From an uncultured Blastocatellia bacterium (lineage in GTDB: Bacteria; Acidobacteriota; Blastocatellia; Pyrinomonadales; Pyrinomonadaceae): a stretch of DNA of 64,000 nucleotides. The stretch's first letter is position 1. The number at the start of each line of letters is the position of its first letter. The stretch is taken from NCBI GenBank assembly GCA_946480785.1, contig CAMLLD010000001.1:145971-209970 (forward strand), given 5' to 3'. Shown here in pieces: positions 15,235-60,947 of the stretch. The translations under genes and the position numbers were made by a program. The notes beneath the pieces were generated by a model. It was not told the DNA's origin. It ran no database searches and saw nothing but the letters and a program-made list of their open reading frames with translations.

Positions 15235-17733
15235 ATGCCTCACACACCTCACAGTTGCTACGCATTTGGTCCATATCGCCTCAACCCCGCGCAGCGTCTT
15301 CTGACGCGCGACGGCGAGCTCATCGCACTCACTCCAAAAGCTATCGATATTCTCACGCTGCTCGTGATGAATGCCGGGCGTCTGGTGGAGAAAGACGATT
15401 TGTTGAAAGAGGTATGGGCCGACACCTTTGTGGAAGAGTCAAACCTCGCGCAGAACATTTTCACTTTGCGGCGAGCGCTCGGTGATGAGCGTGCTGGTCC
15501 AAAATACATCGAGACCGTCCCGCGACATGGTTATCGCTTTATTGCGAGTGTCAAAGCTTGTAACGGGGAAGAGCTTGGGGCGAGTGAAGCGGAGCCGGAG
15601 TCTTTGCCGAACGATGACATTGCGCCGCCGCGGATCGTTGTCGCCGTGCTGCCGTTTATCAATGCGAGCGGCGATGATTCGCTGGAGTACCTCGCTGAAG
15701 GCGTTACTGACAACACCATCAACCACCTTTCGCGTGTTTCGGCGCTGCGAGTGATGTCGCGGAGTGCGGTGTTTCGCCACAAGAGAAGTGAGTTGGATCC
15801 GCAATTGTTGGGGAAAGAGTTAGGGGCGAACGCGGTGTTGGTTGGGACCATCAGTGCGCGGCCGAAAGGTATTGCGATTGGAGTTGAGCTGGTGGATGTG
15901 GCGACTGGTTGGCAGTTGTGGGGCGAGAGTTTTGATTCTGAGAGCAAGGATTTGCTGGAGATTCAGGATGCGATCACGCGGCAGTTGCTGGCGAATCTGA
16001 AACTGAAGTTGACAGGTGAGGAAGAGAAGCGCGTCACCGCGCGCTACACCGAGAACGCCCAGGCGTATCAGGCATATCTTGAGGGACGATATCACTGGAG
16101 TCGTTACACGCGTACAGGGATGGAGAAAGCGATTGGCCACTTCCGCGAGGCCATCCAACTCGACCCCAACTACGCCCTCGCCTACTCCGCGATCGTTGAT
16201 TGCCACCTCCGCCTCGCCACAAACTACCTCCCCCCGGAGGGTGATGTCTCTTGGCTACGTCAAGCACATCTCAACCCAGCGATACACTCAGTCGATGAAT
16301 CAGCACACCGGATTAAACTTCGGTTTGAGTGGGACTGGAAGGGCGTTGAACGAGAACGACGTCGCGCGAATGAACTTAAGACCGACTATCCATCAGCTCA
16401 TCAATGGTACGTGGTATACCGGTTAACCGAGCAACTTCATAGGGACACTCTTCCACCAAACTCATCTCATAATGACCATAGCAATAACCTGGAAATTGGA
16501 CCTAATCTCTCATCACAAATGCGTTGTGCCCACTTAACACCAACAGAAGAAGTGCAGATTTTGTGTTCCGTTGCAAGAGATCAAATTGCGATCGGCAATT
16601 ATCAAGCGGCCGCATTGATCCTCAGGCGCTGGTCTGTCCCGGGCAGATGGCCATGCCTTCATTCACTGAACGCCTGTATAGCTGCAGACTTATTGTTTAC
16701 GGCCGGAAACCTTTTTGGTTGGATTGCCGGCTCAAAGCAACTTCTCCATGGCCACAAACATGCCGAAGCCTTTCTCAATGGGGCCACGGCTCTGTTCGAG
16801 CAGTTAGGGATTAATCGTCGTTCCGTTGAGGCACAAATAGAGTTGGCTCGCTGTTATTATCGGCAGGGACTTCTTGAGATCGCACGAGAAACTATATCTA
16901 AGGCTTTATCTGTCTTGCCAGACGACGAGATAGAGCTTAAAACGTTCGCGTTGGTGATCTGGGGAGTAATTGAACGTGATTCAGGCCGCTTGAACGATTC
17001 CCTAGTAAAATTGCGGGAGGCAGCTCAGATTGAAGCTGCCGGTCACCTCATAACCAACCGGTGCTATCTTGACTTGGCAACAACACTTAAAGAGTTGGCC
17101 TTCTGTGACACGAAGGAAGATTACTTGCATGAGGCAAGATTGCATTTTTGGAGGGCTCTTTATGAATCTGAAGCGCTTGGACATCACCGTAATGTGGGCT
17201 CCGTTGAGAACAACATAGGGTTTCTTCTTCTCAATCTTGGTTTCTATCAAGAAGCTGAAGAGCACCTTCTGCGAGCGCGAAGGATATTCCAAACGTTGTG
17301 CGATATCGTACGGGGTGCCCAAGTAAACGACACACTCGCTCGACTGTATATGGCGACGGAACAACTCACGCTTGCGCAACAAGCAATCAACCAAGCTGTT
17401 GAAAGTTTAGAACTGACTGATAGCGAAGCCATTCTTGCAGAGGCATTAACCACCAAAGGCATCGTTGAGTGCCGGCGAGGCCATTACAGAGAAGCTAAGA
17501 GGAGCTTCGAAGCAGCTCACAAAGTGGCTCAACGGTGTGGAGATACGCAAGGGGCTACTCGCGCCTTGCTGGCACTCTTGGAAGAAGCACGAAACGAGAT
17601 GGACGAGGGGGAGATGATAGCAATAGCAGCTCAAGTAAAAAGATCCCTCTCATCAGTTCCCCAGTCTCCACTTGGTATTAAAGTGGAGAAGTTGATGAAA
17701 CAAGTTACTGGTTTACGGGAACAGTCGCAGTGA
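15235..17733 (+). CDS. Winged-helix/TolB-like/TPR transcriptional regulator
   Basis: 832 residues, no transmembrane segment. Residues about 8-105 form an OmpR/CadC-type winged helix (LTPKAIDILTLLV, ESNLAQNIFTLRRALGD, IETVPRHGYRFIA). Residues about 138-265 are a TolB/FlgO-like domain (VVAVLPFINASGD, YLAEGVTDNTINHLS), followed by a TPR segment near 270-330 (AIGHFREAIQLDPNYALAYS) and a linker. Residues about 440-800 are a second TPR array that is clearly homologous to the N-terminal array of the kinase at 18650-21034 (for example RCYYRQGLLEIAR, VENNIGFLLLNLGFYQEAEE, LAEALTTKGIVECRRG). The first third is GC-rich; from about base 16300 codon use is visibly AT-richer. Cytosolic regulator whose TPR could sense a peptide or protein; DNA targets are unknown. 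Confidence 0.85.
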   Translation: MPHTPHSCYAFGPYRLNPAQRLLTRDGELIALTPKAIDILTLLVMNAGRLVEKDDLLKEVWADTFVEESNLAQNIFTLRRALGDERAGPKYIETVPRHGYRFIASVKACNGEELGASEAEPESLPNDDIAPPRIVVAVLPFINASGDDSLEYLAEGVTDNTINHLSRVSALRVMSRSAVFRHKRSELDPQLLGKELGANAVLVGTISARPKGIAIGVELVDVATGWQLWGESFDSESKDLLEIQDAITRQLLANLKLKLTGEEEKRVTARYTENAQAYQAYLEGRYHWSRYTRTGMEKAIGHFREAIQLDPNYALAYSAIVDCHLRLATNYLPPEGDVSWLRQAHLNPAIHSVDESAHRIKLRFEWDWKGVERERRRANELKTDYPSAHQWYVVYRLTEQLHRDTLPPNSSHNDHSNNLEIGPNLSSQMRCAHLTPTEEVQILCSVARDQIAIGNYQAAALILRRWSVPGRWPCLHSLNACIAADLLFTAGNLFGWIAGSKQLLHGHKHAEAFLNGATALFEQLGINRRSVEAQIELARCYYRQGLLEIARETISKALSVLPDDEIELKTFALVIWGVIERDSGRLNDSLVKLREAAQIEAAGHLITNRCYLDLATTLKELAFCDTKEDYLHEARLHFWRALYESEALGHHRNVGSVENNIGFLLLNLGFYQEAEEHLLRARRIFQTLCDIVRGAQVNDTLARLYMATEQLTLAQQAINQAVESLELTDSEAILAEALTTKGIVECRRGHYREAKRSFEAAHKVAQRCGDTQGATRALLALLEEARNEMDEGEMIAIAAQVKRSLSSVPQSPLGIKVEKLMKQVTGLREQSQ

Positions 17734-17760
17734 GGCTGCCCCGTGCGCTAATCCAGCCGA

Positions 17761-17810
17761 TGAGTTCTAATCTGTTGGGACAATGAATCCGCTAAGCACG
17801 TTAGAACTCA
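17761..17810. repeat. 10-base perfect inverted repeat, 30-base loop
   Basis: TGAGTTCTAA at 17761-17770 is exactly inverted as TTAGAACTCA at 17801-17810. It lies 27 bases after the winged-helix TPR gene and has no T-run after either arm, so a factor-independent terminator is doubtful. It may be a protein-binding dyad or an RNA hairpin at the 3' ends of the convergent transcripts. Confidence 0.4.
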
Positions 17811-17856
17811 CCACATCGTAAATATATTGACTTGGTACCAACTCAGTAAAGTTCAT
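17767..17856 (-). CDS. Possible 29-residue small ORF
   Basis: Reading the minus strand from ATG at 17856 gives 29 residues, MNFTELVPSQYIYDVVSSN then LSGFIVPTD and TAG, preceded at good distance by GAGGAG, the strongest ribosome binding site in this gap. The frame is also open for about twenty codons upstream without another ATG. A 10-base perfect inverted repeat TGAGTTCTAA/TTAGAACTCA (17761-17770, 17801-17810) overlaps its 3' end. Hydrophobic and Tyr-rich but too short for any domain. It might be a peptide gene of the signalling island, or chance. Low confidence. Confidence 0.3.
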   Translation of the reverse strand: MNFTELVPSQYIYDVVSSNVLSGFIVPTD

Positions 17857-17972
17857 ATCAATCTCCTCGGCATAGGCTTTGCCACGTACTCTCTTACGCC
17901 CTCCTGTAGGGGCTGTTTAAGTCAGAATGACGAGTATCACGGCATTGTGATGATATTTTTCCCAATTTGACG

Positions 17973-18248
17973 TTACCACGCAGTGAGCACTGAGATGAAG
18001 AGTGCAATCACCTCTGTTTTGTCGAGGAAAGAATTCTGAACGACTTGTACCGGCGTTCGCGTGGTTGAAATCGTACCCGTTTTAGTGGTCGAGATCGTTC
18101 CGGCAGTAGTGGTCGAAATCGTTCCGGTTCGGGTCGTCGAAATCGTTCCGGTTCGGGTCGTCGAAATCGTTCCACTCTTTGAAAAGGTGGTGAACGGCAG
18201 GGCTAACGTTAACAATATTGTCCCAAGTACCAGTTTTGAAATTTTCAT
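17973..18248 (-). CDS. Small exported protein with five GTISTT octapeptide repeats
   Basis: 91 residues from the ATG at 18248, fixed by a strong AGGAGA ribosome binding site 8 bases upstream; an in-frame extension to 18386 lacks one. Residues 1-24 are a signal peptide (MKISK, then a hydrophobic core VLGTILLTLALPF). Residues 26-65 are five tandem octapeptides: GTISTTRT, GTISTTRT, GTISTTTA, GTISTTKT, GTISTTRT. A tail of 26 residues follows (PVQVVQNSFLDKTEV and IALFISVLTAW). The repeats contain Arg/Lys at a fixed place, so a trypsin-like protease could release near-identical peptides. It sits between TPR regulators and is transcribed divergently from the kinase operon. No family recognised; a peptide-signal precursor is my inference, and a structural or adhesive surface peptide is the alternative. 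Confidence 0.7.
   Translation of the reverse strand: MKISKLVLGTILLTLALPFTTFSKSGTISTTRTGTISTTRTGTISTTTAGTISTTKTGTISTTRTPVQVVQNSFLDKTEVIALFISVLTAW
18054..18173. repeat. Five tandem 24-base repeats coding for GTISTT octapeptides
   Basis: Five consecutive 24-base units on the minus strand encode the octapeptide array of the small exported protein. The two N-terminal-proximal units, at the high-coordinate end, are nearly identical at nucleotide level (TCGAAATCGTTCCGGTTCGG on the plus strand); the others differ at several bases, including third positions. Mixed synonymous change and residue conservation suggests the peptide sequence, not just the DNA, is retained. Confidence 0.8.
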
Positions 18249-18488
18249 GAGCTTTCTCCTATTTAGTAATTGCGTCCGGACAGCGATCAGATCCAGTGAC
18301 TGCGAAGCCGCTGTGGCGGACGCCAGAATAACTTCACGTGTGCACAGTGTTCTCAAAGCATGTGCCATCGCGCAGCGCGGAAACATAACTCGCTAAACTC
18401 CTGTGATTGCTAGCGTTAGCTTCTTGACTCGCGTTGGAACTACAAGCGTAGCATTGAGCTTATTTCTGGGTAGCGAGTAAACAGACAT
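18249..18488. other. Divergent regulatory gap between repeat peptide and kinase operon
   Basis: 240 bases between the divergent repeat-peptide gene and the 53-residue ORF. Apart from the sigma-54-like element on the minus strand, TTGACT at 18424-18429 with TAGCAT 19 bases on is a weak plus-strand sigma-70 candidate for the kinase operon. The palindromic-looking GCTAGCGTTAGC at about 18409-18420 may be an operator. No gene seen. Confidence 0.4.
18352..18367 (-). promoter_or_regulatory. Sigma-54-like -24/-12 element upstream of the repeat-peptide gene
   Basis: Read on the minus strand, TGGCAC-N5-TTGAG places GG and the -12 dinucleotide at the canonical 10-base spacing. The -24 half is perfect; the -12 half is GA instead of the nearly invariant GC, so activity is doubtful. 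If used, transcription would start near 18341, about 93 bases before the ATG of the repeat-peptide gene. A TPR-sigma54 activator gene (21031-24129) lies in the same island, which makes the match worth testing. Confidence 0.3.
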
Positions 18489-18650
18489 ATGGCATCGTGG
18501 TGGAAATACTTAGATTTATTGGAGATCGTGGCTAAGTCCCTCAACGAAAGCAAGGACAGTATCTTGTATAGGCCTGTGGCAATGAATAGCCAGTATACAG
18601 AGCGGCGTAGCGTCAATGAAACTCCGCTTGTGAATAAGAACAAGGCGTGA
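18489..18650 (+). CDS. 53-residue protein translationally coupled to the TPR kinase
   Basis: ATG at 18489 opens a 53-codon frame: an amphipathic, Trp-rich start (MASWWKYLDLLEIVAKSLNE) followed by a polar tail (ERRSVNETPLVNKNKA). Its TGA at 18648-18650 shares its last base with the ATG of the TPR kinase, the classic sign of translational coupling. There is no signal peptide or membrane helix. The ribosome binding site is weak. No family recognised. Coupling suggests a partner of the kinase (an adaptor, inhibitor or leader peptide). An antisense frame over the same bases is less convincing. Confidence 0.5.
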   Translation: MASWWKYLDLLEIVAKSLNESKDSILYRPVAMNSQYTERRSVNETPLVNKNKA

Positions 18651-21034
18651 TGATGCCGATTCACAATGACGAAATATCAAGAGAAGGCCTTACGGAAAGT
18701 GGGCGCGTAATAGCTAGTTGTGTGATCGCGCGTGAGAAACTGGAAATCGGTGACTATGATGGGGGTTGCGTGGTGCTTAGTCCTTGGTGGTCGGTTGGAA
18801 AGTGGCCGAAGCTAACGGGATTAAATCAGCTAGCCGCAGGCGAATTGCTTTTAATGGCCGGATCATTAACGGATGCGGTCGCCAGAGCAAAACGAATAAG
18901 TGGCGGTCAACGCCTTGCGGAAGCATTGATATGCGGGTCTATAGCGCTATTCGACCAGCTTGGCGAAATGCGAAGAGCACTCGAGGCGCGACTTGAACTC
19001 GGCTGCTGCTATTACCATCAAGGACTTTTCGAGCCAGCGCACTCAAATCTCGCTGCATGTCTAGCCGGTCTCACAGACGAAGACGTTGAATTAAGAGCTG
19101 TGGCGCTGATAAGACTTGCGATTGTCAAACGCCATTCTGGTCGCGTGCATGAAGCGCTCAGTTTGTTGAAAAGAGCTGCAGCCATTGAAAATCAAACTAG
19201 TTGCTCGACCAGAGGACGCTTTGCTACTGAGATGGCGAATACTCTGAAGGATATAGGAAAGGCGAACCGCCACAAAGCTTGCTTTACATCTGCCCTGCGA
19301 CATTACGAAGAGGCTGCTCTGCGATTTGAGCAAATAGGGAACATCCGATACGCGGCAGCTGTCGAGAACAACAGAGGCTACTTGTTGTTAAGCCTCAGCA
19401 GATTTCAGGAGGCCGAAAGACATTTAGAACGTGCTCGAACCTTATTCAGCCGGTTACATGACAGCGTCGGATGCGCTCAAGTAGATGAAACACTCGCTCA
19501 ACTGTATCTAACGTCCGGTAAGTATTCTATGGCGCACAATGCCATAGATCTTGCGGTAAGTGAGCTTGAGGCTAGCGGGGAGGACGCATTACTCGCGGAG
19601 GCGCTGACAACGCAGGGGCTGGTTATGTGCCGACTGGGGCGGAGGCAGGAGGCCAAGCCTGTCCTTGAACGCGCCCGCCGCGTCGCGGAGCGATGCGGCG
19701 ACCGCGAGGGCGCCGGACGCGCCCTCCTCATACTCATCGAGGAAATGTGCGACCAACTCCCCGATGACGAACGCCGCGAAATCGGCGCCCAGGCCAACCA
19801 ACTCCTCGCCTCGTCGCAACAACACGCTACCCGCGAACGCCTCCGCAAGTGCCTCGACATGATCGCGGAGGCCCACAACCGTCATGAAGCACAGCGCGAA
19901 CAGGAAATTCACGCCCAAAAGATGGCCGCTTTGGGCGAACTCTCGTTCGGCGTCGCCCATAACGTCAATAACACCCTCACCGGCATACTCGGCCGGGCTC
20001 AACTCATCCTCCGCAACAGTCACGACAAAGCGAAAATCGAGTCAGGCCTCGAATTAATCATCAAGAGCGCCGAAGACGGCGCCCACATCATCCGCCGTAT
20101 CCAGGATTTCGCCCGGCAGCGTCCCAGCCGCGAGTTTGAGACGATCTCGATTACCGACCTGCTGAAGGATGCCTGTGAAATGACGCGCCCGCGGTGGGAG
20201 TCGCGCTCGGAGTTCGCCCAGATTCGTTTCACGCTCCACGCCGACTGCGAAGCCCACATCAAGGGCGACCCCGTCGAACTCCGCGAAGTGCTGGTCAACA
20301 TGATTTACAACGCCACCGACGCCATGCCTTCCGGCGGCGAAATCCGCCTCTCCACGCAGGAAAGCCGTGAGCGCGTCGTCATTTGTCTCGGCGATACGGG
20401 CACCGGCATGACACCCGACGTCAAACAACGCCTCTTCGACCCCTTCTTCACCACCAAGGGCAAGGCTGGCACAGGCATGGGCCTGGCCGTCAGCTTCGGT
20501 ATCATCCGCCGTCACGAAGGCTCCATTGAGGTCGATAGCGAACCGGGCCGCGGCACGACGTTCAAGATCTCACTGCCCAAAGTCATGCCGGCCTCAACGG
20601 AAGCCGGCGGCGACTCGTCCGAAACCACGGCTACCGCCGCCCCGGGCGACGACAAGGTTCGCGTCCTAGTCGTTGATGATGAGACCCACGTGCGCGAGGT
20701 GCTAATCGAAGCCCTCGAAGCTGAAGGGTGCGAAGTGGTGTCGGCCGAAAGTGGCGAGATTGCGCTGGCGGTTTACGACCAATATGAAGGCAAGTTTGAC
20801 GCGGTCTTTACCGACATCGGCATGCCGGCGATGAGCGGTTGGGAACTCTGCACCGAGATACGCGAACGCTCGAAGACGATGCCGCTCGCGATTATCAGTG
20901 GGTGGGCCGACGCGATCAGCGTCCAATCACGAGACGCAGTGAAGGCTGACTGGATTGTCGCCAAGCCTTTCGACATTAATAAAATCTGTGATATTGCGCA
21001 GGAAATCGCGAAACGAAAACTGACGACCGCTTAG
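18650..21034 (+). CDS. TPR-sensor hybrid histidine kinase with receiver domain
   Basis: About 794 residues; starts at 18647 (GTG), 18650 or 18653 (ATG) are all possible. Residues about 10-390 are a TPR array ([53 protein letters not shown]). A coiled linker leads to HisKA with phospho-acceptor His in [12 protein letters not shown] (about residue 437), then HATPase_c: N box [40 protein letters not shown]-terminal receiver has VVDDE and the phospho-acceptor Asp in [11 protein letters not shown] (about residue 722) with Lys in AKPF. No membrane helix, so it is a cytosolic kinase sensing through TPR. The TPR half is AT-richer than the kinase half. The 3' end overlaps the convergent sigma54 gene by 4 bases. 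Confidence 0.9.
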
Positions 21035-24000
21035 CCCGCCTTCGAAGCACTCACGCTTAGCTCGTGACGCTCCAGTTTGAGATAGAGGCCGCGACGGGTG
21101 AGACCGAGTTCGCGGGCCGCACGGGAGATGTTGCCGCCGTGCCGGCGCAGGGCGTCAGAAATCATGCGCCGCTCGACTTCCGCCAAAGCGTCAGCCAGCG
21201 TTCCACCCGGCCCCTGCGAACTTAACGACGGCAACGTGGCGATTGAAGCGGCTGTCGTGGGAGTCGTTGGTGAAGACGTGCGCTTCAACTCCGGCGACAA
21301 ATGCTCGGGCTTGATGATGGCCCCGTCCTCAGCGCGCGCCACGGTTCGTTGAATCTCATTACAAAGCTGACGCACGTTGCCGGGCCAATCGCTCACCATC
21401 AAAAGGTCGACGGCCTGCGGCGTGATCTGAATGTCTTTGCGGCCAAACTTCGCCGAGTAGTGATTGACGTAGTAGTTGACGATCGTCGGAATTTCGGAAC
21501 GGCGCTCGCGCAAAGGCGGCACGCGCAGTCGGATCACGTTGAGGCGATAATAAAGGTCCTCGCGAAAACGTCCCTGGGCCACCATGTCTTCGAGATCGGT
21601 GTTCGTCGCCGCGATGATGCGCACGTCAACTTTGCTCGGCCGTTGTTCGCCAAGCGGTTGAATTTCGCCTTCCTGCAAGAAGCGCAGCAGCTTCGGCTGC
21701 ACGTCCAGCGGCAGGTCGCCGACTTCGTCGAGGAATAACGTTCCGCCCGCGGCGGTGCGAATCACGCCCTGCGAATCCGAGATCGCGCCGGTGAAAGCGC
21801 CGCGGCGATAACCAAACAGATAACCTTCCGACAACTCCTTCGGCACCGCCGTGCAGTTGAACGGAACGAAAACTTTCGCGCGCCGCGACGAAATCGCGTG
21901 AATGGCCCGCGCGACCAACTCCTTGCCTGTGCCAGACTCGCCAGTGACGAGCACCGTCACGTCCGACGAGCGGATCTTGTGAACTTCCTCGACGAGCTGC
22001 GTCATCGCCGGACTCGAATGGATGAACCCCGGCATCAGGCTCGTGCCCGCCAACTCGTCCGAATGTTCGTGGCTGCCGCTCTTTTGCGCACCCGCGCGCA
22101 AGGCACAAACGTCCATACCCAATTCAACCACGCGCAGCAACGGCTCGAGCGCGACGCCCTTCGGCAAAGTAGAACGGTTGCGCGGCGCGAGATACATCAG
22201 CGCCGGCGGCGCGTTTGACGATTTCAGTGGGATCAACTCGGCGTCGTTCTTCTTGGCGTAACGCTCACGCGCGTGGTCGTCGTCGAGGTTATGAAGATCG
22301 ACCGCAATCTTCACGCTTTCGGCCGGTGTGCAGCCCATCGCGATAACGATTCGCGGCTCGTTGCGTTCGCCTTTTTCCGTAATCATGACACGTTGCGCGC
22401 CGGTTTCCTGACGCATGACGGCGGCAAGTTCGCGTAACAAAAGTTCGCGTGACGCGACGGCTTCAGCTAAACGCAACGTTAAGAGTTGGGTTAACGCCGA
22501 CTGCTCCTGCTGACGCTCCGGAGTGGAACGAGCAAGGTCGCGCAGTTCTTCTTCAGCCCGAGACAAATCAAGACGCGCCCCGAGATCTCTGAAAGTATTC
22601 AAGGCCCGACTCAGGTGTTCGCCTGCGCGATCCGGCATGATCGTCGCGTAAGCCCGACCGAGTTCGAGATGCGCACGAGCGGCGCGATAACGATCCCCGA
22701 GCAAGTCGAAAATCGAAACACTGCTGCCAAAATGCTGCGCAGCGGAGGCGGCATCGTGGCGCGCCATGTCCAGCATGCCGCCGAGACGATGCGCTTCACC
22801 CGTAAAACCGAGATCGGTGGCGGAATCGGTCGTTTGTTCACTGACGAACTGAAGCTCGCGACTACACTCGTCGAGATCGCGCGTCTGTAAGTAGGATTCG
22901 GCGGCAATCAACCGCGATTCGCAAATCGCCTGACGATCGCCGATTCCTTCCGCAAGGGCGAGCGCTTCTTGCGCTTTCGCCAACGCTTTCGCAGGATCCG
23001 CAATCGCCAGATAACAGCGCGCTAGTGTTCGCAACGCTTGTCCGGCGTACCACTTGTTTCCGTTCTCTGTCGCCAGCGCGACTGCGCGGCTGAGATAGTC
23101 TTTCGCCTGGTCCAGATCGCCACGAAGCATGTGAAGCTCGCCCAGCGAATCGAGAATCATCGGCACCTTGGCGCCGCGCTCGTCAACTTCGGTCGCCAAA
23201 GCGAACGCGCGCTCCAACGCTTCCTGCGCGCGATCCCATTGGCCGATCAGGACCAGATTGATGCCGAGATTGTTGTAACCGTCTGCAGCATTCGTCTTGT
23301 GATCGGTGCGCTCGTAATAAGTGATCGCCTTTTTGAGGTGTTCGATCCCTTCCTGCGGCCGCTTCAGGAACCAACAAGCGCCGGCCATATTGGCGTACGT
23401 TCTACCGAGCACGTACGCAGCGGGACGATCGCCGATCAACTTCAAAGCCTGATCGAGATTGTCGAGGCCCGACTCGTAATTTCCTTCGTGAATATCAGCG
23501 ACACCAACGCCGAAATACGACTCTGCTAACCCGCGCCAATCACCACTCTGGCGAAAACTTTCCAACGCTCGCTGCGCGTAGTCACGCGCAATCGGATATT
23601 CACTGATGGTGCGATACACGCGCGATAACGCTGCGTAAATATGCCCCGTATTGACGCTGCCACTTTCCGCGTAATCGCGCAGCGTCGACTTCAACATCGC
23701 GATCGCTTTCGGATGATCGCCGTTGTAGTTGTAAGCAAGACCGATTTGAACGCGGAGATAGCTGGCCGTTTCATCATCGAGCTTGGCGCGCGACTCAGGT
23801 GTTTCATACATCGAAACCGCGGCCAGTGAATCACGATAGTGGCCTTGTTGTTCGAGCGTAACGGAGAGTGCGCAGCGCGCGAGGGCCAAGACTGACGCAT
23901 GACTACGAGCATTCGCGATGAGCAGTGAGAGCCGAGCTTTTGCTTCGGTTGAAAGACCCTGGTCCAACAGCGAACGGATCTCATCGAGCTCGTGCATCAA

Positions 24001-24129
24001 TGATTCCGTCGTGGGCCGTACTCGCGAGCGAATCTTCACACGCGCATCAGCGAGATCGACCACACCTCGATCGGTAGGGGAGTTTTCGACGTCACGCCCA
24101 AGTGGCCCGTGACCGACACGTTTATCCAT
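21031..24129 (-). CDS. TPR-sensor sigma-54-dependent transcriptional activator
   Basis: 1032 residues. N-terminal TPR array of about 500 residues (AIAMLKSTLRDYAE, NLGINLVLIGQWDRAQEALE, AKDYLSRAVALATENGNKWY), a GAF-like middle region near 560-690, then the AAA+ domain: Walker A GESGTGKE (about 730-737), an intact sigma54-contacting GAFTGA loop (777-782), Walker B GTLFLDEVGDL, and the arginine-finger region REDLYYRLNVIRLRVPPLRER. The C-terminus is a Fis-type helix-turn-helix (GGNISRAARELGLTRRGLY). It would activate RpoN promoters in response to a signal bound by the TPR. The ATG at 24129 has a weak AGGT site; ATG at 23997 is an alternative. Its array is not the same subfamily as those of the two neighbouring TPR proteins. 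Confidence 0.92.
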   Translation of the reverse strand: MDKRVGHGPLGRDVENSPTDRGVVDLADARVKIRSRVRPTTESLMHELDEIRSLLDQGLSTEAKARLSLLIANARSHASVLALARCALSVTLEQQGHYRDSLAAVSMYETPESRAKLDDETASYLRVQIGLAYNYNGDHPKAIAMLKSTLRDYAESGSVNTGHIYAALSRVYRTISEYPIARDYAQRALESFRQSGDWRGLAESYFGVGVADIHEGNYESGLDNLDQALKLIGDRPAAYVLGRTYANMAGACWFLKRPQEGIEHLKKAITYYERTDHKTNAADGYNNLGINLVLIGQWDRAQEALERAFALATEVDERGAKVPMILDSLGELHMLRGDLDQAKDYLSRAVALATENGNKWYAGQALRTLARCYLAIADPAKALAKAQEALALAEGIGDRQAICESRLIAAESYLQTRDLDECSRELQFVSEQTTDSATDLGFTGEAHRLGGMLDMARHDAASAAQHFGSSVSIFDLLGDRYRAARAHLELGRAYATIMPDRAGEHLSRALNTFRDLGARLDLSRAEEELRDLARSTPERQQEQSALTQLLTLRLAEAVASRELLLRELAAVMRQETGAQRVMITEKGERNEPRIVIAMGCTPAESVKIAVDLHNLDDDHARERYAKKNDAELIPLKSSNAPPALMYLAPRNRSTLPKGVALEPLLRVVELGMDVCALRAGAQKSGSHEHSDELAGTSLMPGFIHSSPAMTQLVEEVHKIRSSDVTVLVTGESGTGKELVARAIHAISSRRAKVFVPFNCTAVPKELSEGYLFGYRRGAFTGAISDSQGVIRTAAGGTLFLDEVGDLPLDVQPKLLRFLQEGEIQPLGEQRPSKVDVRIIAATNTDLEDMVAQGRFREDLYYRLNVIRLRVPPLRERRSEIPTIVNYYVNHYSAKFGRKDIQITPQAVDLLMVSDWPGNVRQLCNEIQRTVARAEDGAIIKPEHLSPELKRTSSPTTPTTAASIATLPSLSSQGPGGTLADALAEVERRMISDALRRHGGNISRAARELGLTRRGLYLKLERHELSVSASKAG

Positions 24130-41736: not shown

Positions 41737-43263
41737 GTGGTCAACGGACATTTGGAAGACAGTTTGCGGCGGGAGATTGAAAGTTATCTCGACAGTCGAC
41801 TCAACGCCGTCAAGCAGGAGATCGCCACGCTGCAAAGCCTGCTCAATGAATCGCTCACCAACTTTCTTGAGCGCCAGTCAGACGTGCAGGTGGAAAGCAG
41901 TTTGGTCGCTTCGATAACCGAGCACCTCCATGCCGCGCACGAACGCGGCATCGAACACGCCGCCTCCGAAACGTCGCGCGCCAAAGCGTCGAGCGATATG
42001 GCCATCGTGAAGGCGGGCATCAGCGAGATCAACGAGCAGAAGTCGCAGGCCGAAATACTCAAGGCACTCGTGAACCGCGCTTCTTCGTTTGCTCCGCGCG
42101 TGGCGTTCTTCGTGATCAAGGGCGAGCAGGCCACTGGCTGGCGGGGACGTGGTTTTGAAGGGACGATCGGCGATAACGCGATTCAGCAGATTTCTTTGCC
42201 ACTCAGCGCCGATACCGTGATCGGAAGCGCAGTGAAGTCGTTGACGACCTGGAGCGGCGACTCGGGTTCGCACGCGGAAGATCATCTTTTATTTGATCGT
42301 CTCGGTGAAGAACCACCGCAACGCATCGTCGCGATTCCGTTGACAGTGCGCGGACGCGCCGTGGCGGTGTTGTATGCCGATTCCGCCGGACTCGATTCCG
42401 AGTCGATCAATCTCGAAGCACTCGAAACGCTCGTTACAGTTGCGGGCATGGCGGTTGAGCTTTTGTCAGTCTCACGCGCTGCTGCTCCGAAACGTGCGCC
42501 AGCGGAAGAAGCAGCTCCAGCAGCAGAAGCTGCGCCGGCTGAACCGGAGCCGCAACCGGCTTACACTCCGACCAGCGAGTACACGCCGGCGAGTGAATAC
42601 GAAGAAGCGCCGCACGCGACTCCTGAAGCAAGCTACTCCGAACCAAGTTACGCTCCGGAACCAACCTATTCCGCTGAGCCAACGTACTCCGCTGAACCCG
42701 AATACTCAGCCGAACCGTCTTACTCCGCTGAGCCGTCGTTCTCAGGCGCGGAAACTGTTCCCACTTACGACACCGAACACGCTGAAGCTGGCTCGCTTAT
42801 GGACGCGCCGGTTGCCGAAGAAGCAACCACGCCCGCAGTCGAAGCAACAGAACCGTCGCATAGCTTCGGTGAAGAGACTCCGGCCTGGACCGCGACTCCA
42901 GTTGAAGCAACTCCGGCCGCGCCGCCGCGACGACGTTACGGTCAAGACGCGGAACTGCCGGTGGAAGTTACGGGCGACGAAGAGCGCCGCTTGCACCAGG
43001 ACGCGCGCCGCTTCGCCCGGCTGCTGATCTCGGAGATCAAGTTGTACAACGAGCAGAAAGTCGCTGAGGGAAGAATCGAGCACGATCTTTACGACCGGTT
43101 GCGCGAATACATCGATCGTTCGCGCGAGATGTATGATAAGCGCGTGCGCCCCGAGGTCGCGAATCGTTACGACTACTTCCACGGCGAGCTCGTGAACACC
43201 CTCGCTGAAGGCGACGTTGCCAAACTCGGCGCGAATTATCCCGGCGCGACTGTGAACGCTTAG
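41737..43263 (+). CDS. GAF-like protein with SAEP-x-Y repeats and conserved helical C-terminus
   Basis: 508 residues from a GTG at 41737 behind GGAGG. Three parts: a coiled-coil head (residues about 1-115, LDSRLNAVKQEIATLQSLL), a GAF-like domain (about 120-245; RIVAIPLTVRGRAVAVLYAD is typical), and a disordered acidic/Pro/Tyr-rich linker with tandem S-A-E-P-(T/E/S)-(Y/F) repeats near residues 300-336. The last 100 residues form a charged helical domain (RRLHQDARRFARLLISEIKL, YDRLREYIDRSREMYDKRV). No catalytic residues seen. It is probably a cytosolic scaffold or sensor, perhaps for the divergent response regulator; that link is inference. The lytic transglycosylase gene starts 16 bases after it. 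Confidence 0.75.
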   Translation: MVNGHLEDSLRREIESYLDSRLNAVKQEIATLQSLLNESLTNFLERQSDVQVESSLVASITEHLHAAHERGIEHAASETSRAKASSDMAIVKAGISEINEQKSQAEILKALVNRASSFAPRVAFFVIKGEQATGWRGRGFEGTIGDNAIQQISLPLSADTVIGSAVKSLTTWSGDSGSHAEDHLLFDRLGEEPPQRIVAIPLTVRGRAVAVLYADSAGLDSESINLEALETLVTVAGMAVELLSVSRAAAPKRAPAEEAAPAAEAAPAEPEPQPAYTPTSEYTPASEYEEAPHATPEASYSEPSYAPEPTYSAEPTYSAEPEYSAEPSYSAEPSFSGAETVPTYDTEHAEAGSLMDAPVAEEATTPAVEATEPSHSFGEETPAWTATPVEATPAAPPRRRYGQDAELPVEVTGDEERRLHQDARRFARLLISEIKLYNEQKVAEGRIEHDLYDRLREYIDRSREMYDKRVRPEVANRYDYFHGELVNTLAEGDVAKLGANYPGATVNA

Positions 43264-60575: not shown

Positions 60576-60947
60576 TTACCAGCGTGGTTCGCGCTCGTAA
60601 CGATCGTTATCGCGATCACGGCCACCGCCGTAACCACCACGACCGCCGCCGCCGCGGCCACCACCGTAACCACCGCGGCCGCCACCGCCGCCGCGATCAG
60701 TCCTCGGCTTGGCTTCGTTGACGGTCAAATTGCGGCCGCCGAAATCCTTGCCGTTGAATGCCTCGATAGCTGCTGCTGCCTCTTCAGGGGTTGCCATCTC
60801 CACAAAAGCAAAGCCGCGTGATCGTCCGGTTTCTCGATCTTCAATCACCGAAGCTGATTCCACTGTACCAACTGCCGCGAAAGCTTCGCGGAGTTCCTCG
60901 CTCGTAGTACGGAACGAGAGGTTTCCTACGTATAGTTTGGTAGCCAT
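60576..60947 (-). CDS. RRM RNA-binding protein with glycine-rich tail
   Basis: 123 residues. RNP2 [11 protein letters not shown] and RNP1 [16 protein letters not shown] frame a single RRM; the tail is Gly/Arg/Tyr-rich ([15 protein letters not shown], then [13 protein letters not shown]), an RGG-like RNA-binding extension. Bacterial members resemble cold-induced glycine-rich RNA chaperones. An AAGGA site precedes the ATG. The 326-base gap upstream could include a long structured leader. Function here is inferred from the family. Confidence 0.92.

Follow-up and report, generated by a model that had tools for sequence, protein, structure and literature searches.

Small repeat precursors paired with TPR regulators in Pyrinomonadaceae, a candidate family of peptide signals and receptors

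The DNA analysed here (the window) comprises 64,000 nucleotides from an uncultured Blastocatellia bacterium of the family Pyrinomonadaceae (Acidobacteriota; GenBank assembly GCA_946480785.1, contig CAMLLD010000001.1, positions 145,971 to 209,970 of the forward strand), in which a gene for a small protein with five GTISTT octapeptide repeats sits between genes for a winged-helix/tetratricopeptide repeat (TPR) regulator and a TPR histidine kinase. The reading we favour, with moderate confidence, is that the repeat protein serves as precursor to a short peptide signal, that the kinase and the winged-helix/TPR protein are its cytoplasmic receptors, and that they represent one of a large family of such pairs. 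It draws on the gene pairing, signal-peptide-like leader, repeated units, leader and tail common to the precursors, predicted TPR fold and promoter-like sites found by sequence analysis; actual export, cleavage, uptake, binding, regulation and communication between cells would follow from it. A preliminary description of the window had proposed a repeated exported precursor paired with TPR regulators in the manner of RRNPP systems, and relatives of the pair were indeed found side by side. A divergent small open reading frame (ORF) with a leader by hydropathy rule and a hydrophobic C-terminus was present at 64 of 74 sensor genes versus 2 of 212 control genes, using a filter set after the loci were seen and applied identically to the controls. 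Across eight whole genomes picked for richness in sensor genes, 50 of 53 matches to precursor profile A5 (E 1e-5) adjoined and diverged from a sensor gene, or 38 of 41 without the 12 profile rows that came from these genomes (one further match is identical to a row).

The window island and its repeat precursor

All four genes named in the preliminary description were recovered in place as ORFs with Pfam domains. The features of the island are as follows.

15235..17733, + strand: winged-helix/TPR regulator, candidate receptor 2, with C-terminal TPR sensor (ORF, Pfam domains)
16525..17709, + strand: TPR sensor of candidate receptor 2
17973..18248, - strand: putative exported repeat precursor, 91 aa, with signal peptide, five GTISTT octapeptides and C-terminal helix
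17976..18029, - strand: conserved C-terminal helix ending in Trp, residues 74-91 (alignment A1, model)
18054..18173, - strand: five tandem octapeptide units, residues 26-65 (sequence and Tandem Repeats Finder)
18177..18248, - strand: predicted signal peptide, residues 1-24 (sequence, conserved leader in alignment A1, hydropathy, modelled helix 3-16)
18353..18367, - strand: sigma-54-like -24/-12 site TGGCAC-N5-TTGA before the precursor gene (pattern match)
18647..21034, + strand: TPR-histidine kinase-receiver, candidate receptor 1, with N-terminal TPR sensor (ORF, Pfam domains)
18683..19870, + strand: TPR sensor domain of candidate receptor 1
21031..24129, - strand: TPR-sigma54 activator with AAA domain and Fis-type helix-turn-helix (HTH) (Pfam domains)

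The likely start of the repeat protein is the ATG at 18248 with AGGAGA upstream, giving 91 aa (the longest ORF is 137 aa), and a short linker joins the octapeptide units to the C-terminal helix. Tandem Repeats Finder reported a 24-bp array at 18061-18173 with 4.7 copies and 84% matches, and the units were modelled without structure (pLDDT about 48-54). Protein searching returned 149 homologues of similar length; among the 120 of these that were listed, 119 had at least three units, 103 ended in Trp at the C-terminus, and unit number by motif pattern was five in 78, four in 30, six in 8 and other in 4, with a maximum of seven. The fifth position of the unit was all-Thr in 109, all-Ala in 5, all-Gly in 1 and mixed in 5 of the listed homologues; since nearly all arrays hold a single residue there, changed units have mostly changed together. 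Silent differences between units far exceeded replacement differences, both in the window array (pS 0.485, pN 0.095 per site) and in five arrays pooled (pS 0.489, pN 0.149 per site), so the amino-acid sequence of the unit is probably held by selection. The homologues, repeated units, Trp ends and excess of silent divergence thus show the array to be more than chance, and amino-acid conservation of the repeats, on which the preliminary description had made its idea depend, was found within the array.

The window receptors (832 and 795 aa) have in common a TPR sensor of ~400 residues at 39% identity, which makes one ligand class for both plausible. The TPR-sigma54 activator was not matched by the sensor profile, so that the three TPR regulators described earlier are all present and only two of them carry the shared sensor family. 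All three had 0 windows of 19 residues with hydropathy >=1.6, and the kinase and the other two regulators are therefore probably cytoplasmic.

Precursor/receptor pairs across the family

Orthologues of the TPR kinase were found in 10 of 119 genomes of the family (Pyrinomonadaceae relatives), eight of which had a divergent small exported repeat protein (inferred across two contigs in G024; G093 and G100 are cut by contig ends). The units in these eight genomes were GTISTT (two genomes), GNITVSS, GNITSRT, AGTITGS, PGDISGK (contig-cut), GNIHGVS and GDISGDR, so placed beside the same kinase with differing sequence. The sigma-54 activator adjoined the kinase in 8 of the 10, the exceptions being G093 and G024. 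A scan of genome contigs confirmed at least 2 of 76 pattern stretches, one locus (L002) having the whole island and the other (L001) the island up to a contig end. The repeat profile gave weak or strong matches in 9 of 119 family genomes, including two with GTISTT and divergent relatives in G046, G095 and G024; matches in G115, G032, G051 and G075 were not counted as members, that in G115 being rejected on account of a region with no sensor gene. For metagenome contigs, 10 exact sizes were common to the kinase and repeat-protein matches versus 0-1 at shifted sizes, in a comparison compiled by hand from both match lists for the longest contigs (at least 4000), with the matches listed on the repeat-protein side.

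Sensor profile A3 matched 49 of 162 genomes of the class and, in a sample of the phylum where scoring was limited to 4 candidates from each genome and members may therefore be missed, 9 of 396 genomes, all from the same family set. Named relatives were all Pyrinomonadaceae or Acidobacteria; no relative was confirmed among the viral contigs searched, and a plasmid search gave 4 records with weak TPR matches only.

The pairing count was made on 77 loci, the 74 sensor genes being those with at least 450 bp upstream. Precursors beside sensor genes were 57-96 aa long and were separated from the receptor ORF by 24-430 bp. Among the ten unpaired sensor genes, two were positive by other evidence (L050, cut by a contig end, and L102), three were winged-helix/TPR genes adjoining the kinase's precursor (the window, L002 and L051), and five remained without a precursor (L054, L055, L068, L098 and L100). 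At E 1e-5 the precursor profile found a partner for 46 of the 56 sensor genes of the eight genomes; with the threshold relaxed to E 1e-3, 50 of 63 matches lay beside a sensor gene. Three precursor-like matches lay away from sensor genes (G108:C133:35185; G002:C18:316, near a contig end; and G095:C7:77562). At L123, L125 and L130, one receptor faced two or three precursors in tandem whose cores are related yet different, possibly as new channels arising.

Ten downstream neighbours of precursors belonged to nine different families, and the idea of an operon with target genes lost support because neighbours vary between loci. An M61 glycyl-aminopeptidase gene was seen 3' of the precursor at two loci (L085:1386-3305 and L114:5570-7453); since many units begin with Gly, the enzyme might take part in processing there, though not generally.

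Precursors had a common leader and C-terminal helix around a variable core. By eye, a common core unit was G-x-[ILM]-x-[TS]-x; copy number ranged from one to several, proline-rich linkers were frequent, and many paralogues had just one or two units with such a linker. An internal repeat above shuffles was detected in 53 of 85 precursors, three near-duplicates (L076, L087 and L091) having been omitted. Arg and Lys were both missing from the matched six-residue units of 49 of these 53, so that cleavage after Arg/Lys, as envisaged in the preliminary description, is not supported as a general rule. The six paralogues of genome G041 had leaders with mean identity 71%, tails with 81%, and cores IIHTE/IIHTE, IIWTE/IIWTE, IIWTG/IIWTG, IMWTG/IMWTG, VLHTD/VLWTE and GMWTD/VIWTG, with both copies identical in 4 of 6. 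When the best match between copies within a precursor was compared with the best match to a same-genome paralogue, the within-precursor match won 79 of 98 comparisons; comparison across genomes gave 2503 wins, 30 ties and 125 losses.

Pfam TPR_12 was found in 64 of 64 receptors (all 64 were scanned, truncated and near-duplicate receptors being left out of alignment A4). Receptor frames beside precursors were 452-896 aa, and 3 of 64 paired frames were at most 500 aa, two of those being cut by contig ends. The modelled TPR sensor was a superhelix closest to LGN-peptide and then to Rap/NprR structures. Profile A3 matched RapJ (3.3e-5) and RapI (3.6e-4), with designed TPRs and kinesin light chains scoring better.

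Promoter-like sites and a proposed route of signalling

The sigma-54-like pattern TGGCAC-N5-TTGA had its only match in the window, on both strands, at the site before the precursor gene. Of 9 TPR-kinase loci, 8 had an equivalent site, 116-141 bp upstream of the precursor start and with a single base changed in two of them. The ninth, L058, lacked the site and belongs to G024, also one of the two genomes with no activator beside the kinase. Over 0.79 Mb, both strands, the pattern matched 15 times, 8 of these being the TPR-kinase precursor sites; as a general feature of the pairs it lost support, since it was not generally found at others. Among the other pairs a TTGCAA-N4/5-TTGCAA dyad was frequent, in most cases 87-153 bp upstream of the precursor; it occurred with at most 1 mismatch at 15 of 44 plus 7 of 13 loci (receptor classes assigned by crude motifs) versus <2% of shuffles that preserved base content only. 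Both site patterns were set after the loci were seen, and near-duplicate loci (L075/L076, L077/L087 and L085/L091) were counted separately. RpoN was found in 6 of 7 genomes, its absence from G041 perhaps reflecting genome incompleteness, and Opp-type binding proteins were found in 7 of 7. The TPR-sigma54 activator probably drives the sigma-54-like promoter of the precursor. Control of all three regulators by the peptide, as first suggested, is thus not supported, only two having the shared sensor and the activator more likely driving that promoter; overall, the interpretation in the preliminary description is partly supported.

Under the proposed mechanism, sigma-54 polymerase and the neighbouring TPR activator would transcribe the precursor gene, Sec would export the product, and signal peptidase and further proteases would free several near-identical units of 7-10 residues. 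The units would build up outside the cell or in the periplasm and be taken up, with an Opp/Dpp-type importer as the candidate, and a unit bound in the TPR superhelix would alter kinase or DNA-binding output. Paralogous pairs with the same leader, tail and TPR fold and different units could then serve as parallel channels.

Known systems and competing explanations

Bacillota are described as using cytoplasmic TPR receptors in peptide quorum sensing (PMC11343458, PMC10075063, PMC9765709). RRNPP_detector, which was applied to Firmicutes and viruses, takes receptors to be 250-500 aa long (PMC10075063), and phages phi3T and phi105 have tandem Phr precursors with more than one pheromone copy per exported precursor (PMC11343458). 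The pairs resemble RRNPP/RRNPPA systems (Rap-Phr, NprR-NprX, PlcR-PapR, AimR-AimP; Bacillota) in their small precursor with signal-peptide-like leader at 64 of 74 loci, in the adjacency of precursor and receptor genes (the 50 of 53 matches above), and in receptors with TPRs predicted, from TPR_12 and the modelled fold, to be of peptide-binding type. They differ in that the window receptors exceed the RRNPP_detector range, the hosts are Acidobacteriota rather than Bacillota, and the outputs include a kinase, sigma-54 AAA, Fis-type HTH and winged helix; further differences are the N-terminal TPR sensor of the window kinase, divergent genes, up to seven units (among the GTISTT homologues listed) and the conserved C-terminal helix. 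With the phi3T/phi105 precursors they have in common several peptide copies per exported precursor, and differ in unit sequence, host phylum, receptor outputs and the many parallel pairs per genome. Among solved structures, LGN/Pins was the closest fold and kinesin light chain the closest natural sequence, both entries being peptide complexes. To our knowledge, these TPRs are mostly eukaryotic scaffolds or adaptors with no exported precursor, and we know of no RRNPP receptors with kinase or sigma-54 outputs. An NCBIfam PhrK-family match (1 of 46, E 0.0011) and some weak Pfam matches were taken as chance. The best explanation appears to be that RRNPP precursor/receptor systems are the nearest functional parallel to the pairs, which are nevertheless not members of that family, because receptor length and host phylum fail its definition. 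In the literature searched, which left out most subscription papers, there was no description of such precursor/TPR-receptor pairs, no GTISTT, and no mention of RRNPP together with Acidobacteria.

An unlikely alternative is that the divergent TPR regulator senses something else and switches on the small exported protein as its output, be it a secreted effector, a bacteriocin-like peptide or a surface protein. Divergent regulator-target pairs are common, regulatory-looking sites precede the precursor (the sigma-54-like site, the TTGCAA dyad) and the C-terminal helix could act on membranes; yet pairing is near one-to-one in whole genomes, a common leader and tail surround a core that varies, its copies tending to change in step, and the ten neighbours in nine families include no constant third gene such as one for immunity. 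Less probable still, the TPR protein would bind the precursor in the cytoplasm before export and report on secretion by the cell itself, without any cell-to-cell communication. Synthesis of the precursor takes place in the compartment where the window receptors appear to reside, no import across two membranes would be needed, and extended segments are bound by TPR domains such as those of LGN and kinesin light chain; taken alone, however, this reading leaves the several matching copies in a precursor and the diversified cores among the paralogues of one genome unexplained. That the repeats form a structural or adhesive polymer, for example an envelope fibre, we consider very improbable: Thr/Ser-rich tandem units occur in surface proteins, whereas here the repeats were modelled without a fold (AlphaFold2 cannot exclude a polymer), one or two units plus a proline-rich linker are all that many paralogues have, and the pairing with regulators is tight.

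Several observations weigh against a peptide signal read by TPR receptors. Acidobacteria are diderm, which obliges the peptide to pass through two membranes on the way out and again on the way in, and no common protease or exporter was found among the ten downstream neighbours. No significant internal repeat was present in 32 of 85 precursors, the within-genome copy comparison was lost in 16 of 98 cases and tied in 3 of 98, and a codon test gave a mixed result, 186 of 344 identical residues having the same codon versus 115.5 expected; because codon sharing exceeds expectation, part of the likeness between copies may come from recent duplication. In the eight genomes, 10 of the 56 sensor genes gave no precursor match, although one of these, the kinase of G002, does have a GTISTT precursor. 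Correlation with the receptor was lower for the motif (rho 0.359; partial correlation 0.254) than for leader (0.449) or tail (0.461) and may be explained by co-inheritance; the case for special receptor-motif coevolution is weakened on this ground. Among five G041 paralogues, receptor differences were not concentrated in the supposed inner helices (13/125 vs 11/115), and the idea of specificity residues on inner TPR helices is likewise weakened.

More broadly, we give roughly even chances to the proposal that one Acidobacteriota family evolved, apart from Gram-positive RRNPP, a large genetically encoded peptide language. Rich genomes would hold about 5-10 pairs, many having a repeated code peculiar to the pair, and the readers would be cytoplasmic TPR kinases, sigma-54 activators and Fis-type/winged-helix regulators in a diderm system of communication by peptide import; the window island would then be a single channel in which two receptors share one peptide. 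If the pairs work like RRNPP, a common, little-studied soil phylum would have a peptide code of its own, much diversified and linked to kinase and sigma-54 outputs. Genomes hold several of these compact, separable pairs, so that specificity and its evolution are directly testable. Elsewhere in the window, further short tandem repeats were seen at 60619-60694 and 42661-42737.
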